Shown here: positions 1-41,312 of the stretch, piece by piece | Position numbering within the stretch: position 1 is the first letter of the stretch | Layout: each line of letters begins with the position of its first letter | Virus record (IMG/VR): IMGVR_UViG_3300046004_001408 | Span: 1 to 43,105 of that record | DNA length: 43,105 nt | Reading direction: 5' to 3' (one strand) | Origin: a virus | Program-made: the position numbers and the translations under genes | Notes under the pieces: model-generated | Told to the model about the DNA's origin: nothing | What the model saw: the letters and a program-made list of their open reading frames with translations, nothing else | Databases searched by the model: none

Positions 1-3000
1 GATTAAGCTTACTGAATAAAAATGGTATTGAAATAAGTCCAGAAAAAATTGAAGGTTTACTTAAAGGTCAACTAGGAGATGCCAATTGGCTTAATTCATA
101 TTTAGAAGGATATCTTTATAATAATGATGCTGTTATTGCAGGTCTAGCTCTTTATGTAAAGAATGGTCTTAATGATGTAATGATAAAATCTCAAGCTAAA
201 TTCAATGAGTTTGCTGAAGATTTAAAACCTGATTTAGAAAAGATTGGTTTTAATCCATCTAACATAGGTGAATTAGGTCAATTAGTTGGTGATATGGATG
301 TTGTTGGTAAACTTGATGAAAATGGTAATGTGGTTGAGACTCAGGTTTGGACACTACTAAATAGATTCAAAGGATACCGGTTAAAAGAAACCCAACTCAA
401 TGATGAAAAAAATAAAGCTGAGCAGGCTTTTGCTGAAAGTAATTCAGAAGAAAACAGATTAAGATATCTTGAAGCACACAGAAACTTGAAGAAGTTTAAG
501 CGTGACTATATGCATGATGAATACATTTCAGAAGTATATGAAGCAGAAGATCTTTTAGGAGTAGATCAGATTGGTAAAGAAGCTGCTTATCAAAGACAAG
601 TTGCGCTAGATGCAATCAATAGTGCTTCAGAAAAAATGGTAAAAGAAGATGATACCAAAGAAGCTGAAGAGGAAATGAAACTTGCACTAAGAGCATACCG
701 TCAGTTGTTTTCTATGACCTATTTAAATGGTCAACCTAAAAATGCTGAGGATAAAGCTATTGCTGAAAGATTAACTGAACACCGAGACAGAACAAGACAA
801 TATTATGAGTGGAAATTAAGAAAAGGTTCTTTTGAAAAAGCTTTAGCCACATATGAAGCTGAATTAGAATTAGCAAAATATCCTAGAGGTAGTGAAAAAT
901 TCAATATGCTTAGACAGGCATGGATTGAAAAAAATACTAGAAGAACAATTTCCAATGATTACTATGAAAAGCGTAACAAACTTATTCAAAGGAAAAAGGA
1001 AATTTTATCTAAGCTTCCAGATAGTATTCAAAAAGATATTGATAACACAAGTATTACTGAAACCATATTAGATCTTACAGCTGGATTTAGAGATGAGAAT
1101 AATGAGGTTCAAGCAAATGAGCTTGATCCATCTGTGTTAAAGAAAGTAAAGGAACTTGAATTAGCTTCTTTAGAAAAGAACAAGAACTATGTGCGCAAAT
1201 CAGGACTTACTCCAGAACAGCATGCGCAACTCTCTAGATTATTTGAACTAAAAAATGAGAGAGATTTAAATGATTTGGAAAGAGAAGAAATGTTCAGATT
1301 GATTAAGGTCAGAAATGATTTTGGTCTTAATGAATATGAAATGGCAGAACTTGATTCTATTAATTTAGAACTTGAGGAACTTACAGACTATTCAGCTAGT
1401 GAATATTATGTAGATATCATGGATACTCTTCTTAAAAAAGTAGATGCCACTCCTCTAAAAGAAGCTACCGGCTCTAATACAGTCACTAAACAAACTGCGG
1501 ATGCATTACTTGACCCAGCAATAACAGATAAGTTATTTGGGCAGAGTGAAGAGTTTGATACATGGTTTAAAGCTAACCATATAGAGACTGAATACTTTGA
1601 TAGAGTAACTGGGAAGAAAGTAAAATCTTATAGAAGGCTAAGAGTTTGGAGTGCAAGTGCACCTAAAGATGAACGTTTCCTTGAGACCACAGAACTTAAA
1701 GATGAATTTGGTAATGTAACTGACGTTATACCAGGTATTCCTAAGATGGAGTTCTACAGCCGCAATATTAAGAAGGAATACAAAACCGGATATAATGCTG
1801 CTACAGATAGAGTTGAAAAGATAATTGGAGTGCATATTAATAACCGCGGAGAATGGTTACCAAAAAGTATTGAAGATGGTGCTGTAGATGGAACATACAT
1901 CAATGAGAAATATGAACAAATGCGTAATGAAAAACCAGATCTTTTCAAAGTTCTGGAAAAACTTACCAAGCATCATTTAAAAAACCAAGAGGGGGCTGCA
2001 TATAAATCCAAGCTTTATTTAGATTTTCCAAGATTTTCTAAATCAAGACTTGAAGTATTTCAAAGTAGTAATCCTATAACAACTCTTGTAAAAAGAATTA
2101 AAGGTTTCTTTGGTGGTTATGCTGATGACTTTGAAGATGGTCTAAATAGTAAAGATCAATGGAATCTTGTTAAAGCAGATATGTTTGATGATGAAATTGC
2201 AAGTGTTCCAATACGCGGTCTTTATGATTTGGATATAAGTGATGTATCTACAGATATCACAAAAGGAATGATGCAGTACATGTTCTCAATTGAAACTCAA
2301 AAACAATTGATTGAGATGAGTCCATTAGCTAGATCTATCCAAGATGTATTGAATGACCCTGACAACAAAGTAAAAGATTTAGAAAAAGTAAATAAATGGA
2401 ATCTAGTAAATAGAGGTATAGTAACTTATTTAAACAAAGATGGAATGAAAGTTAGACAGCGTGCTGTTACTAACTTTATTGAAAGAGAATTTGAAGGAAA
2501 GAACTTATCTGGTTTTGGATCTGATGTACCTTGGTTACAAAATGCTTCCAATGCAATGTTTAAAGCAGCATCATTCCAATTCTTTGCATTGAATATTCCT
2601 TCCGCATTAAAGAATAGTTTTGGTGCCAAGTTTCAATCAATGATTGAGGCAGCCGCAGGAAAATATTACAATGTAGGAGATTGGACAAAAGGAAATGCTT
2701 GGTCTTATAAAGCTATGACTGATATGAGCTTACCAAGTAATCTATATGCTAAAGGAGCAAAAAGTTTAACTCAGCAGTTGATTGATATTTATGATCCGGT
2801 TCAAGGAAGATTTGAAGAAAAGTTTGGTGATTCAATGTCAAGATCTGCTCTTAAAGATGCGGTTAGTGGTTCATGGTTGTATAGTTTCCGTAAATGGGTA
2901 GAACTTCAAGCAACTCTCCAAATCTTTGGTGGAATGATGTATCATAAAAAAGTTAAGATCTTTGAAGGAACTCCTCAAGAAAAAGAGATTAATATGATTG

Positions 3001-3947
3001 ATGCTTGGGAAACTAAAGATGGTAAGATCCAATTAAAAGAAGGAGTTAATCCTGAAGAAGGAATTACATATGATGCTGAAGGTAAAATAGTTATAGGTAA
3101 GAATTTCAAAGCTTATAAAAATAAGATCCAACAGGTGATGAATAATCTTCAAGGAGCTTACTCACAGTTTGATCAACCCGAAGCCCAAAGATATTTGGCA
3201 TTCAGATATATTAGTTTCTTGCGTAAATACTTGACACCAATGCTTATCAATAGATGGGGACATGCTGGAAGTATTTTTAATGGTACAGTTAGACCGCGTT
3301 TAAATGCAGGTCTTGGTGAAGGACATACTGGATACTATATCACTACTTTGAAAGTGTTAAAGGAAACTGTAAAAGAGATGGGTAAGAATTTACCTTTTAT
3401 GCAAGCTGATGAAAAAGCAGCAGTGCTTAGAACATTAACTGAAGTAATTGGACTTATAGTACTTTACTTTGGAGCAAATGCTTTGTTTGGTTATGATCCA
3501 GATGATGAAGACCGCTACAAAAAGTTACGTGCTAAGTCAGGTCCACTTCCGCTATTTGGTACAGATGACAGCAATGAGGCATTTAATCCTGGCGGATGGG
3601 CGGAAAATCACATGTTGTTATTGATGATGAATGTGAGAGCTGAGAACCAGCAGTTCATTCCATTACCTGGTTTGGGATTAAAGGAGTACGCTTCAATGAT
3701 GGATCTTAAATCAGTTGCTTTTGGTCCAACTGTTAGTTCATACATTGACATACTAGATAATCTCTTAAAACTAGCTACGGGAGATGAGAGAGCATACTAT
3801 GCTAAAGATGCTGGACCATACCGTTGGCAAAAAGAAGGAGATCCAAAGATTATAAACATGTTCAGTAAAATGATTGGTCTTACGGGATCATCATTATCAC
3901 CTGATGTTGCAATCAAGAACTTAAATAGTGTTCAAGCACGGAAATAA
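1..3947 (+). CDS. 3' part of a giant phage protein, probably virion-associated
   Basis: The frame is open from base 3 to the TAA at 3945-3947 with no start required inside the window, so this is the C-terminal 1314 codons of a longer gene. The first ATG seen, at 180, lies mid-protein. Roughly the first 400 residues after it are charged, helical and probably coiled coil. The middle is mixed. The last third has hydrophobic stretches, including one near bases 3425-3490 (LIVLYFGANALFG). No enzyme motif was recognised. It is the only large plus-strand gene and converges on the replication block, as the giant virion genes of crAss-like phages do. Those ejected or RNA-polymerase-associated proteins are the nearest parallel by size and position. 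The function is inferred from context only. Confidence 0.6.
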   Translation, partial: LSLLNKNGIEISPEKIEGLLKGQLGDANWLNSYLEGYLYNNDAVIAGLALYVKNGLNDVMIKSQAKFNEFAEDLKPDLEKIGFNPSNIGELGQLVGDMDVVGKLDENGNVVETQVWTLLNRFKGYRLKETQLNDEKNKAEQAFAESNSEENRLRYLEAHRNLKKFKRDYMHDEYISEVYEAEDLLGVDQIGKEAAYQRQVALDAINSASEKMVKEDDTKEAEEEMKLALRAYRQLFSMTYLNGQPKNAEDKAIAERLTEHRDRTRQYYEWKLRKGSFEKALATYEAELELAKYPRGSEKFNMLRQAWIEKNTRRTISNDYYEKRNKLIQRKKEILSKLPDSIQKDIDNTSITETILDLTAGFRDENNEVQANELDPSVLKKVKELELASLEKNKNYVRKSGLTPEQHAQLSRLFELKNERDLNDLEREEMFRLIKVRNDFGLNEYEMAELDSINLELEELTDYSASEYYVDIMDTLLKKVDATPLKEATGSNTVTKQTADALLDPAITDKLFGQSEEFDTWFKANHIETEYFDRVTGKKVKSYRRLRVWSASAPKDERFLETTELKDEFGNVTDVIPGIPKMEFYSRNIKKEYKTGYNAATDRVEKIIGVHINNRGEWLPKSIEDGAVDGTYINEKYEQMRNEKPDLFKVLEKLTKHHLKNQEGAAYKSKLYLDFPRFSKSRLEVFQSSNPITTLVKRIKGFFGGYADDFEDGLNSKDQWNLVKADMFDDEIASVPIRGLYDLDISDVSTDITKGMMQYMFSIETQKQLIEMSPLARSIQDVLNDPDNKVKDLEKVNKWNLVNRGIVTYLNKDGMKVRQRAVTNFIEREFEGKNLSGFGSDVPWLQNASNAMFKAASFQFFALNIPSALKNSFGAKFQSMIEAAAGKYYNVGDWTKGNAWSYKAMTDMSLPSNLYAKGAKSLTQQLIDIYDPVQGRFEEKFGDSMSRSALKDAVSGSWLYSFRKWVELQATLQIFGGMMYHKKVKIFEGTPQEKEINMIDAWETKDGKIQLKEGVNPEEGITYDAEGKIVIGKNFKAYKNKIQQVMNNLQGAYSQFDQPEAQRYLAFRYISFLRKYLTPMLINRWGHAGSIFNGTVRPRLNAGLGEGHTGYYITTLKVLKETVKEMGKNLPFMQADEKAAVLRTLTEVIGLIVLYFGANALFGYDPDDEDRYKKLRAKSGPLPLFGTDDSNEAFNPGGWAENHMLLLMMNVRAENQQFIPLPGLGLKEYASMMDLKSVAFGPTVSSYIDILDNLLKLATGDERAYYAKDAGPYRWQKEGDPKIINMFSKMIGLTGSSLSPDVAIKNLNSVQARK

Positions 3948-4474: not shown

Positions 4475-5551
4475 TTACTCAGTTTCTGTACCCTGTTTCA
4501 ACTTGAGTTGAGTTATGACACAATCTTTATATTCCATGTCTTCTCTTTCACCAAGTAATACTGGTTGAAACAATGAGCCGCCAGGAAAATAATAAAGGTA
4601 TCTAACTTCAACAATAGCACCTACTTTAGGAACTTGTTGATTAGGATATACTGTTGTATTACCAACCTCAATGATACTCTCTGGATGATTCATATCATAG
4701 ACACCCAATGAAATTGATCTTTTGTTCTCATTAATTCCTATAACAACACATGATGCTGTAGCATGGAATTTAAACTTCAGCTGATCCCCACCTGAGTTTG
4801 GTCTACCTGGTACATACGGAGATCTGATATTCTTGAATACAATACCTTCAGCATTTTCCATTCTCAGCTTTTCCAATAAAGCAATCTTCTCTGCTCTAGT
4901 CCATGCTGTTGGAGCAACTAGTAAATGACCTGTGTTATGTCTACAAGTTTCTTTAAGCATAGCATATCTTAAATGATAACTAGCTTTAGGTAACTCTGGA
5001 ATAATACAATCAAAAAGCATAACTGTATCACCAAGAGCTTCACCATCCCAAGTAAAGTCAGAGGCTTTTAAACCGTTCTCTATAAGATCAATTGTGTCTT
5101 GAGGTAATTGGACAGTTAATCCTTTACGGTTGGTGCCAATGGCTTTACCGTCTCTCTTGAGCACACCGCGTCTGACTCCGTCATACTTTTCTTGTGCACA
5201 CCAGTCATCACTATTGAGGTATTTCTCAAGATCTGATTCCTCAATTTCATTTAAGAGCTGAGGTAGGAAATCTGTTTGCCGTGCTTCAGTATGATTAACC
5301 ACAGTTGGATTACCACCGTTGTTAACTTCCTTATAACCCTTACTCATCTTCTCATGAATAAGTTTATTATAAATAAGTTCAGCTTTTTCTACAGTTACTG
5401 GAACTGGTGTTTTGCTTCCAGTAGCTAGGGTATTACCTCTTCTACCATATGCAAAGTTTACAACATATCCATCTCCTGATTCTTGGATGGATGCTTGATA
5501 AATTTTATCTGATGACCCTTCTGTATAAGAGAGTTCAATTGTTTTAGTCAT
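4475..5551 (-). CDS. ATP-dependent DNA ligase with N-terminal WGR-like domain
   Basis: It seals nicks in DNA using ATP, forming a lysyl-AMP intermediate. Residues 1 to about 75 look like a WGR domain: YGRRG at 35-39 replaces the usual WGR core. The nucleotidyltransferase core follows. The adenylation motif EKYDGVR has Lys122, DGEAL is at 169-173, EGIVFK is motif IV at 235-240, and LKFKF is motif V at 258-262. An OB-fold-like C-terminus follows (VVIGINE, VEVRYLYYF). At 358 aa it is a compact phage-type ligase. WGR domains bind DNA ends or ADP-ribose-related proteins in other families, so here it may target breaks. It lies at the 3' end of the replication block, apart from the polymerase. The family call is firm and the WGR call fairly firm. 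Confidence 0.93.
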   Translation of the reverse strand: MTKTIELSYTEGSSDKIYQASIQESGDGYVVNFAYGRRGNTLATGSKTPVPVTVEKAELIYNKLIHEKMSKGYKEVNNGGNPTVVNHTEARQTDFLPQLLNEIEESDLEKYLNSDDWCAQEKYDGVRRGVLKRDGKAIGTNRKGLTVQLPQDTIDLIENGLKASDFTWDGEALGDTVMLFDCIIPELPKASYHLRYAMLKETCRHNTGHLLVAPTAWTRAEKIALLEKLRMENAEGIVFKNIRSPYVPGRPNSGGDQLKFKFHATASCVVIGINENKRSISLGVYDMNHPESIIEVGNTTVYPNQQVPKVGAIVEVRYLYYFPGGSLFQPVLLGEREDMEYKDCVITQLKLKQGTETE

Positions 5552-10453: not shown

Positions 10454-10671
10454 TACTTTATCTTTTCATGTTCTTTCATAGACATAAGCAACTCTACTTC
10501 TTGTGTTGCGTATAGATTAAATTCTAATCCAGAATCTGTTATACAAAGGGATAGTGTACCATCCATGTAAAGAAAATTAAATTCTTCATTTAACTTTCCA
10601 TTTACTTCCAATCCTTCCATTCTTACACGAGAATAACGGGGAAGTTCATATACTTTAAGTTTATTTGCCAT
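10453..10671 (-). CDS. Small hypothetical protein, beta-rich (72 aa)
   Basis: Alternating polar and hydrophobic residues (LKVYELPRYSRVRM, FNFLYMDGTLSLCITD) suggest a small beta sandwich. TAATG junctions occur at both ends, so it is one of a run of tightly coupled small genes downstream of the glucosaminidase. Not recognised. Confidence 0.7.
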   Translation of the reverse strand: MANKLKVYELPRYSRVRMEGLEVNGKLNEEFNFLYMDGTLSLCITDSGLEFNLYATQEVELLMSMKEHEKIK

Positions 10672-11252
10672 TATAAATCATTGAGATAATCAGTAGAAAT
10701 ACCAAATCCTTTGTAGTCTCTGATAATTTTCTGAAGTTTTTGTGGATATTTTTCATCACGCGCATAGCCTCTAAGATAAGCATAATATTGATTTCTTGTT
10801 TTAACTTTTCTAGCAAATACAGCTTGCATATAAGCATAATCAAGAACAGCCATTTTCCAATTTTTGAATTTGGCATGTCCTCTATTTACTCCTATTGAAG
10901 TTGTGTTACGTTGTTTGGCAACCTTCATTCCAAAAGGATTGTTATTTTCATGCCAGATATCAGAATTAAATTTTCCTTTCTTACTTGATTCTTGTATAGC
11001 TTGAGCTATTACAATATCTGGATATCTAATTCCACAATCAATTATAAATTGTTTGAATGCTTTAAAGCTAAATGGTTCTTCACCAGTGTATACCTCAAGG
11101 AATACTGGTGGAACTTCATACTGAGTTTCAAATTTTTTCTCACTCTTTTGCATTGATAAAAATATCACCGCGCATAAAATAAGTAAGATGTAAGGATATA
11201 CTCTTACAGGTTTTGACTTCATAGTCTTTTTATCATACCAATATAGATTCAT
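10671..11252 (-). CDS. Membrane-anchored glucosaminidase (GH73-like), probable lysis or muralytic enzyme
   Basis: It cleaves peptidoglycan glycan strands. A basic N-terminus is followed by one hydrophobic segment (about 19-34, VYPYILLILCAVIFL) acting as a signal anchor, so the enzyme faces the periplasm. The glucosaminidase domain covers about 65-190. AQAIQESSKKG has the expected catalytic Glu88, and NNNPFGMK and YARDEKYPQKLQKII are family hallmarks. Its anchor suggests export by the host Sec system, like a SAR or anchored endolysin. It is the first coding gene after the non-coding RNA region and its terminator. No holin was clearly identified, although small membrane proteins occur nearby and at 37.8 kb. 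Confidence 0.88.
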   Translation of the reverse strand: MNLYWYDKKTMKSKPVRVYPYILLILCAVIFLSMQKSEKKFETQYEVPPVFLEVYTGEEPFSFKAFKQFIIDCGIRYPDIVIAQAIQESSKKGKFNSDIWHENNNPFGMKVAKQRNTTSIGVNRGHAKFKNWKMAVLDYAYMQAVFARKVKTRNQYYAYLRGYARDEKYPQKLQKIIRDYKGFGISTDYLNDL

Positions 11253-11270
11253 AATAAAAGTTTAAAAAGT

Positions 11271-11295
11271 TAATAAAAGCCCCGATGCCTCGGGG
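11271..11295 (-). terminator. Intrinsic terminator ending the 11.3-11.6 kb non-coding stretch
   Basis: On the minus strand CCCCGA-ggca-TCGGGG (six base pairs) is followed by C and TTTTATT. It lies 19 bases upstream of the glucosaminidase start, so it ends the RNA upstream of that gene. Confidence 0.8.
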
Positions 11296-11560
11296 TCAGG
11301 GATACCTAAAGGACTTAATTGATTTGTTTAGCACCCCTCTTACCAGGGATCTGTCAGGCACCTGCTGCTGTATGGATAATTACTTCCAAAAGTTTACTGC
11401 TGACATTCATAAGAGTAGGGTCTAGCTGAGAATCATTACTATTGTATAGACCTAGCAAAGCTCATTCTATAGTTATCATGCCTTCCTTTCTCAAGGGAAC
11501 AACAATTCCAACATTACTGCTGGTATCTTTATACAATTTCTCTGGTTAAACCAATTGAAT
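11271..11560 (-). ncRNA. Candidate structured non-coding RNA of unknown class
   Basis: This is the largest gene-free stretch (11253-11590) and no coding frame was found. Minus-strand pairing: GATACC (11522-11527) with GGTATC (11301-11306) closes the domain; GGTCTA with TAGACC around 11410-11455; TTCC(C)TT-GAGA-AAGGAA near 11478-11500; ATCCCT-GGTAAG-AGGGGT near 11333-11352; then the terminator hairpin. The motif CAGCAGTAA-n-TTGGAA occurs twice (11506-11522 and 11384-11402). TATAAA at 11528-11533 could be a -10 box, but then GATACC would precede the start, so read-through from the 123-aa gene is equally possible. It matched no RNA class I know. Confidence 0.5.
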
Positions 11561-11590
11561 TGTAATGGATCAATGTTTAGCCATTTTCTT

Positions 11591-11962
11591 TTACTTGAGC
11601 ATTTTTTCTAGCTCTTCAACAGACTTCCCTGCTAGCTCACCTTCTTTCTTATCTTGAATAAGACGCATGATCTTAGCATTGTGTTCCTTGATTTCAGCTG
11701 CATTTGCTAATTCTTCTTGATCTTCTACTTTAGATTGAAGTATTTCCAATGCTATTTCAAAGCGGAGTTTTGCTACCTTATCTTTAACAGATCTCTTTAC
11801 TACAAAAGATTTCTTTCCAGAATGTTTATGTTCCTCTTCTAGAGAAACAGCCAGGGTATCTAAATCAGTGATTGATAGATCCCATAATTGTTCAACTGTC
11901 AACAATCCTTTGGATGTGTTGAATCTCAGTTTTTCTTTACTTGCTTGTTTAAAATTATCCAT
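11591..11962 (-). CDS. Hypothetical phage protein paired with the 721-aa gene (123 aa)
   Basis: The pattern RFNTSKGLLTVEQLWDL at the start and LAGKSVEELEKMLK at the end recurs in several phage groups in my memory, but no function is established. It is helical and acidic/basic mixed, probably a small adaptor or scaffold. It starts three bases after the 721-aa gene ends, so it is co-translated with it. It is followed by the 338-base non-coding stretch. Confidence 0.72.
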   Translation of the reverse strand: MDNFKQASKEKLRFNTSKGLLTVEQLWDLSITDLDTLAVSLEEEHKHSGKKSFVVKRSVKDKVAKLRFEIALEILQSKVEDQEELANAAEIKEHNAKIMRLIQDKKEGELAGKSVEELEKMLK

Positions 11963-41199: not shown

Positions 41200-41227
41200 T
41201 TCTATTCGTTGAAGGGTTAATAATAGT

Positions 41228-41303
41228 GGTCATAGTAGGAACTGCCCCTACAACTATGTCCTTCTCAAGGAAGGTGCGTCTCTCATGTTTGCGCCATATG
41301 ACC
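41228..41303 (-). ncRNA. 76-base cloverleaf-like element (tRNA-like or pseudo-tRNA)
   Basis: On the minus strand a perfect 7-bp acceptor-like stem (GGTCATA / TATGACC) encloses exactly 76 bases. Immediately inside its 3' side is a perfect 5-bp stem with 7-base loop (GTAGG-ggcagtt-CCTAC), as in a tRNA T-arm. A 4-bp stem with 7-base loop (CCTT-CCTTGAG-AAGG) sits where the anticodon arm belongs, and a 3-bp stem (GCG/CGC) sits at the D-arm. The consensus T-loop (TTCGA), D-loop GG and U33 are missing, so a working tRNA is unlikely. An alternative fold is TCCTT-GAG-AAGGA. It could be a decayed tRNA, a tRNA-like processing site or a leader structure. Confidence 0.4.
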
Positions 41304-41312
41304 AACCTCTTC

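Follow-up and report, generated by a model that had tools for sequence, protein, structure and literature searches.

Gene organization around the 338-base gap

The window, by which we mean the whole stretch of DNA that was analysed (43,105 nucleotides), is a 43-kb virus record in which the genes around 11 kb lie on the minus strand. A 123-aa phrog_2018 gene and a gene for a glucosaminidase-type endolysin are separated by a gap (11590 to 11253 on the minus strand) and, since both flanking genes are on the minus strand, the RNA described below is read from that strand. The original prediction had reported a gene-free gap of 338 bases at 11253–11590, and these coordinates are exact; it is the largest of the 37 gaps in the window (median 21). 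Genes elsewhere had been described as packed with almost no spacing, which is mostly true; gaps of 288 nt (mostly occupied by a plus-strand ORF) and 243 nt also exist. The clear terminator that had been recognised in the gap corresponds to a clean intrinsic stem-loop (11295–11280 on the minus strand), situated 27 nt ahead of the endolysin start codon. The features at the locus are as follows.

11591–11962, minus strand: upstream gene, 123 aa, phrog_2018; its stop codon lies 7 nt 5' of helix P0
11328–11583, minus strand: structured RNA of 256 nt, conserved from P0 to the GCUAA tail, based on homology and covariation; limits taken from the conserved P0 and GGGUGCUAA
11280–11295, minus strand: intrinsic terminator stem-loop, CCCCGAGGCATCGGGG-CTTTT followed by CUUUUAUU; clean stem
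10671–11252, minus strand: downstream gene, glucosaminidase-type endolysin

In the 243-nt gap we observed a cloverleaf-like fold (41215–41310, minus strand) with a GGUCAUA/UAUGACC closing stem and three arms, one of them with a CUUGA loop; it received no tRNA call by ARAGORN or Rfam, and its fold z-score was only −1.06.

Signals in the single sequence

We examined the gap on its own for signs of structure. The internal hairpins that had been noticed are present, while the folding energy of the gap was no better than that of shuffles (z = −0.04 on the minus strand and −0.55 on the plus strand), and energy-based folding was dropped as evidence. Pairing between the 5' and 3' ends through GATACC and GGTATC, on which the original prediction had also relied, is at chance level: perfectly complementary 6-mers separated by 100 nt or more occur 6 times in the gap compared with 10.8 in shuffles, so this one is not special, and the pair probability of the closing helix was about 0.25. 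It also falls outside the conserved structure, because the CC of GATACC belongs to the 5' strand of hairpin 1. The repeated motif did not hold up as evidence either, as the longest exact direct repeat of 9 nt was matched in 19% of shuffles; by chance, the full gapped motif CAGCAGTAA-N2-8-TTGGAA would be expected zero times in the window, but it was picked out only once it had been noticed. Of its two copies, the first corresponds to the conserved hairpin 1 and the second lies in the non-conserved variable arm V3. The single-sequence case for an RNA would thus have been weak.

Homologous copies in other phages

A blastn search of the gap against phage and plasmid records gave no real match, and short matches in relatives of the window and in genome contigs were judged to be chance. 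One IMG/VR contig (L032) was reached through a 20-mer that it shares exactly with the gap. It belongs to a related phage, and its noncoding DNA matched the window at 76% over 132 nt (E 2e-18) and in a second collinear block. An 18-base core pattern, TTCTCAGCTNGNCCCTAC, was built from the window and L032 copies and retrieved 32 contigs from IMG/VR. All 32 were homologues (32/32): beyond the pattern itself, each has the same set of conserved blocks, on a single strand and with the order unchanged. Another copy (L049) was recovered by a second pattern, and the cultured crAss-like phage Cellulophaga phi14:2 was found at 2909–3205 by blastn with a consensus-like copy (L057); the phi14:2 copy extends from P0 through GGGUGCUAA over about 450 nt. 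The window RNA is homologous to 33 other phage loci.

The RNA was absent from 17 IMG/VR relatives of the window compared by synteny, several of which carry tRNA genes at that place, and use of the endolysin as a search anchor provided no useful neighbour among the relatives. Searches in bacteria, suggestive only, gave no copy in 395 genomes of one phylum (21-mer, 1 mismatch) and none in 200 genomes of one family (searched under strict filters and with no positive control).

A covariance model of 14 sequences, from which the window and L032 were left out, recovered the window at 11554–11391 at a score of 60.3 bits (E about 1e-9, 292 kb searched), and also L032 (93.6 bits), L060 (75.1), L049 (51.3) and phi14:2 (42.1); none of the other relatives was reported at E<=1. 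The window copy keeps all the scored pairs. Taken with the model match, this indicates that the gap holds a true member, running from 11583 to 11328 on the minus strand and followed by the terminator. The original size estimate of 260–290 bases was about right, given a conserved RNA of 256 nt and about 304 nt up to the end of the terminator stem.

Conserved structure and covariation

The elements of the predicted structure in the window copy are listed from the 5' end of the RNA.

11566–11583, minus strand: P0 hairpin, UGG-CUAAACAUUGAU-CCA, with the invariant loop AACAUUGA
11527–11565, minus strand: P1 and variable arm V1 (UUACAAUUC ... GAAAUUGUAUAAAG), from unscored by-eye complementarity in group-1 sequences
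11508–11523, minus strand: hairpin 1, CCAGCA-GUAA-UGUUGG, with a GNRA tetraloop; double changes in 6/6 pairs, 98.7% of cells paired
11500–11506, minus strand: P2 5' strand, AUUGUUG, partner 11438–11444; double changes in 6/7 pairs
11483–11499, minus strand: P3 hairpin, UUCC-CUUGAGAAA-GGAA, directly continuing P2 (coaxial P2-P3); double changes in 3/4 pairs, 100% of cells paired
11488–11494, minus strand: 5' strand of the proposed pseudoknot PK1, UUGAGAA, in the P3 loop, partner 11426–11432
11445–11482, minus strand: variable arm V2, inside P2, differing in length and sequence among homologues
11438–11444, minus strand: P2 3' strand, CAAUAGU, covarying with 11500–11506
11434–11437, minus strand: junction AAUG, invariant
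11426–11432, minus strand: PK1 3' strand, UUCUCAG, invariant
11333–11421, minus strand: P5, ACCCU (11417–11421) with GGGGU (11333–11337), extended by CUCUUA/UAAGAG, around variable arm V3; 97.7% of cells paired

We counted base pairs in 26 distinct sequences for 29 pairs in five helices. Standard pairs occupied 99.1% of the cells, compared with 85.9% in shuffles and 37–45% when the partners were slid. Compensatory double changes were found in 16 out of the 29 pairs, with both sides changed in 83 cells compared with 17.3 in shuffles (0/500). Each of hairpin 1, P2 and P3 is established by covariation of its own, and RNAalifold recovered P0, hairpin 1, P2, P3 and P5 unaided from the L052 clade alone. 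The stems differ considerably between copies. P2 is represented elsewhere by UGUGUUG/CAACACA, CGUGUUG/CAACGCG, ACGUGAG/CUCACGU and CAUGCAG/CUGCAUG, while P0, whose stems were picked by hand, occurs as UGG/CCA, AGG/CCU, AGC/GCU and CUC/GAG. Homologues have GUAA or GUGA as the loop of hairpin 1, in agreement with GNRA, and P5 shows one clean A-U to G-C exchange, in L032. The arms V1, V2 and V3 vary freely in length, and P1/V1 is missing from the compact L052 clade.

The two PK1 strands are invariant and complementary in 26/26 rows, so covariation cannot speak on this pairing, and we consider the UUGAGAA:UUCUCAG pseudoknot likely. The invariance of UUCUCAG is partly selected, because it forms part of one capture pattern; it is also kept in L049 and phi14:2, both found by other means. 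A second pseudoknot is possible between AAUG and the CAUU of the P0 loop (11572–11575), both of which are invariant.

The original prediction of an undescribed structured RNA had named the lack of compensatory changes in homologues as what would speak against it, and the changes in 16 of the 29 pairs answer it strongly. It was right about the RNA, mostly for the wrong reasons. On this comparative evidence, the gap holds a real, uncatalogued RNA gene whose base pairs have co-evolved in about 27 distinct copies from several kinds of phages.

Several copies carry additional elements. L049 (1672–2084, minus strand) and phi14:2 (L081, 2909–3362, plus strand) have an extra domain closed by GUAGUU/AACUAC between CUCAGC and GACCCUAC, and the hairpin-1 arm is expanded in L060 and phi14:2. 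In a 120-kb clade (A4: L052, L055, L059, L064, L065, L068, L075 and L077), conservation runs beyond both edges of the core, a TTGACTACYAAGAA-like element upstream of it has a second copy downstream, and covariation is seen in a 3' hairpin (A4 columns 572–586). A conserved hairpin with a AACUGAUAA-like loop region lies directly 5' of the RNA (TAGCT...AGCTA in L053/L057, AACT...AGTT in L062). L067 and L072 have a similar element, within arm V3 in the former and downstream in the latter. Finally, L032 has a 783-nt noncoding stretch (1984–2766, minus strand) of which the RNA is the second half, and the roughly 400 nt upstream look like further structured RNA.

Carriers and genomic context

The carriers comprise Lightbulbvirus-like phages (the window and L032), the crAss-like phi14:2, the L052 clade (contigs of up to 123 kb) and phages with large tRNA arrays (L061 and L079). 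Exactly one copy was present in each of the 22 records searched (22/22). The RNA is absent from most Lightbulbvirus-like relatives of the window, though these are mostly fragment records, and would therefore be dispensable.

A tmRNA gene is located 14–58 nt downstream of the RNA in L050, L053 and L057, and likewise in L071 (near-identical). tRNA genes adjoin the RNA or lie within about 450 nt of it in L049, L061, L067, L072 and L073, and L079 is tRNA-rich. ARAGORN detected no tRNA near the window copy, and none was found in the stretches examined of the 120-kb clade. Several relatives of the window have tRNA genes after the phrog_2018 gene, in the very position taken by the RNA in the window; the site thus behaves as an island of small RNAs in the phage group of the window.

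Some further observations concern these neighbours. In L001–L004, L007 and L017, tRNA genes (Gln, Ile, Lys, Met and others) are found just downstream of the phrog_2018 homologue. Phage tmRNA genes were located in L050 (5226–5681), L053 (9030–9417), L057 (182–505), L061 (8855–9260), L063 (7885–8206) and L071 (8223–8678), and several of them have unusually long predicted tag peptides with VAA or LAA ends (e.g. ANAQIEANMNKVFSLLGEEVAVAA). The 12421-base L061 locus brings together GOLLD, a tmRNA, 22 tRNA genes and the new RNA in one region. In phi14:2 (L081, KC821624.1), three tiny antisense CDS (gp007–gp009) are annotated over or beside the RNA at 3106–3431; they are probably spurious.

No protein neighbour is common to all lineages, so the RNA is not the leader of one gene. 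Lineage by lineage, it is followed by tmRNA, tRNA, small unknown proteins or a lipoprotein, and the ORF after it in L070 has the opposite orientation. An endolysin homologue (L050_d2) lies downstream of both RNA and tmRNA in L050. In some copies the RNA starts about 2–16 nt past the upstream stop codon (a few nt in the window, L058, L060, L079 and phi14:2), which implies cotranscription and processing, whereas a divergent ORF lies upstream in the L054/L055/L064/L065/L068/L069/L080 group, implying that the RNA has a promoter of its own in that clade. A recognisable terminator stands behind few copies only; discrete 3' ends are thus not assured.

Possible role of the RNA

We regard it as probable that the locus encodes a stable, trans-acting phage RNA of a class outside Rfam, single-copy, about 150–450 nt long and carried by several phage lineages, some of them phages of Bacteroidota. 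Such an RNA would be cotranscribed with neighbouring genes (the upstream one in the window), would end at the terminator in the window copy, and would be released or trimmed by the processing that serves neighbouring tRNAs and tmRNA. It would fold into a compact core with a loop-to-3'-strand pseudoknot (PK1) and, as a stable RNA, act in trans in the infected cell. The most plausible role, suggested by gene context, would be a translation-related takeover, as for phage tRNA/tmRNA islands. The invariant AACAUUGA and AAUGAG, which fall outside the covarying helices, are the likeliest candidates for contact surfaces. A categorically new phage RNA machine with a new activity, such as a ribozyme or an RNA acting on host ribosomes or tRNAs with the phage tmRNA, shared by crAss-like and other phages, is conceivable, and we hold it to be doubtful.

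The varied downstream genes argue against a cis regulator, that is a riboswitch, attenuator or antitermination leader for the downstream gene (the endolysin in the window) that would act through the terminator. The short distance from terminator to endolysin start in the window and the endolysin homologue downstream in L050 are in its favour, but the downstream gene is different in almost every lineage and lies on the opposite strand in L070, few copies are followed by recognisable terminators, and no alternative pairing of the RNA with the terminator could be identified, which makes this explanation unlikely.

A ribozyme, self-cleaving or self-processing, for the trimming of polycistronic phage transcripts would suit a compact, probably pseudoknotted RNA of about 200 nt with invariant bases outside its covarying helices, a sharp 5' limit of conservation and a start a few nt past the upstream stop. 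No Rfam ribozyme family matches it, though, its flanks are diverged and clade-specific in several copies, and catalysis cannot be read from sequence; we consider this quite improbable.

The RNA often comes right after a gene and once right before a terminator, as would a protective 3'-UTR or processing structure that stabilises the upstream mRNA or marks operon ends. Yet its loops are invariant base by base, far exceeding the needs of a protective stem, and the upstream ORF of the L054 group is divergent, so that we give this explanation very little weight. Finally, a decayed protein gene or a degenerate tRNA/tmRNA, suggested by one protein-like minus-strand frame between stops and by the tRNA genes at the same site in relatives, is hardly credible and was rejected for the gene once the covariation was seen, as there are stops in all frames, conservation tracks base pairs with indels free in the arms, there is no tRNA/tmRNA score and tmRNA is a separate neighbour in L050, L053 and L057.

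The stable trans-acting RNA that we favour is smaller than GOLLD and ROOL, simple to make in vitro, strong in covariation and present in a cultured Cellulophaga phage (phi14:2), so its function, structure and essentiality are testable. Few structured RNA families from phages are known. Recognising this one would stop annotation of the locus as protein genes, as with the three small antisense CDS of phi14:2, and its frequent place next to phage tmRNA and tRNA genes offers a way into the study of their takeover of translation.

Comparison with known RNA families

In agreement with the original impression that it matches no known RNA class, Rfam 15 at permissive E-values gave no better-than-chance match for the window gap, the L032 locus or the L061 copy, and at gathering scores no family overlapped the RNA in further homologue loci. 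In particular, no group I or group II intron and no known ribozyme was matched by the window, L032 and L061 copies. We considered a likeness of AAAGAUA to a group I intron S element and dropped it, since hairpin 1 covaries as a local hairpin and Rfam gave no match. In the literature search, outside which most subscription papers lay, no described family matching the RNA was found.

tmRNA (RF00023) is a pseudoknotted stable RNA, as is predicted for the new RNA, and adjoins the latter in several phages, but it is a separate gene (14–58 nt downstream in L050, L053 and L057); ARAGORN found no tRNA or tmRNA in the window, Rfam found none at the RNA, and the RNA is without a tRNA-like acceptor/T arm. 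Bacteriophage T4 encodes the stable RNAs C and D, small noncoding RNAs with unassigned function in the phage tRNA operon. The tRNA-cluster setting is similar, but neither T4 nor its host is related to these phages. The phi29 pRNA is a structured phage RNA whose loops make specific contacts; it differs in that the new RNA has no Rfam match and no linked packaging ATPase gene was seen.

GOLLD and ROOL are phage RNAs often found near tRNA islands and their functions are poorly understood (PMC12286853). GOLLD (RF02032) is, like the new RNA, a noncoding phage RNA with a conserved core and less conserved arms. The tRNA-island setting is shared by the copies in L049, L061, L072, L073 and others, not by the window or the L052 clade. 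GOLLD is unlike the new RNA in being often >800 nt, compared with 150–450 nt, and in sequence and structure, with no RF02032 match in the window at gathering score nor in the gap at E<=5. Moreover, L061 carries a real GOLLD at 5021–5439 and the new RNA at 1416–1714, 3.3 kb apart, and therefore the new RNA is not GOLLD. ROOL is encoded in phages and prophages near tRNA islands and has multiple pseudoknots and no known protein partner (PMC12286853). It resembles the new RNA in that setting and in its pseudoknots (predicted in the new RNA), but it is much larger, and its Rfam model matched neither the window nor the homologues scanned. RNA-only homo-oligomers characterise such ornate RNAs as a kind, ROOL forming a homo-oligomeric cage. 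By gene context GOLLD and ROOL are the nearest kinds, and comparison of sequence and predicted fold finds them unrelated to the new RNA, which by every sequence and structure test is a new family within a known kind of phage structured RNAs.
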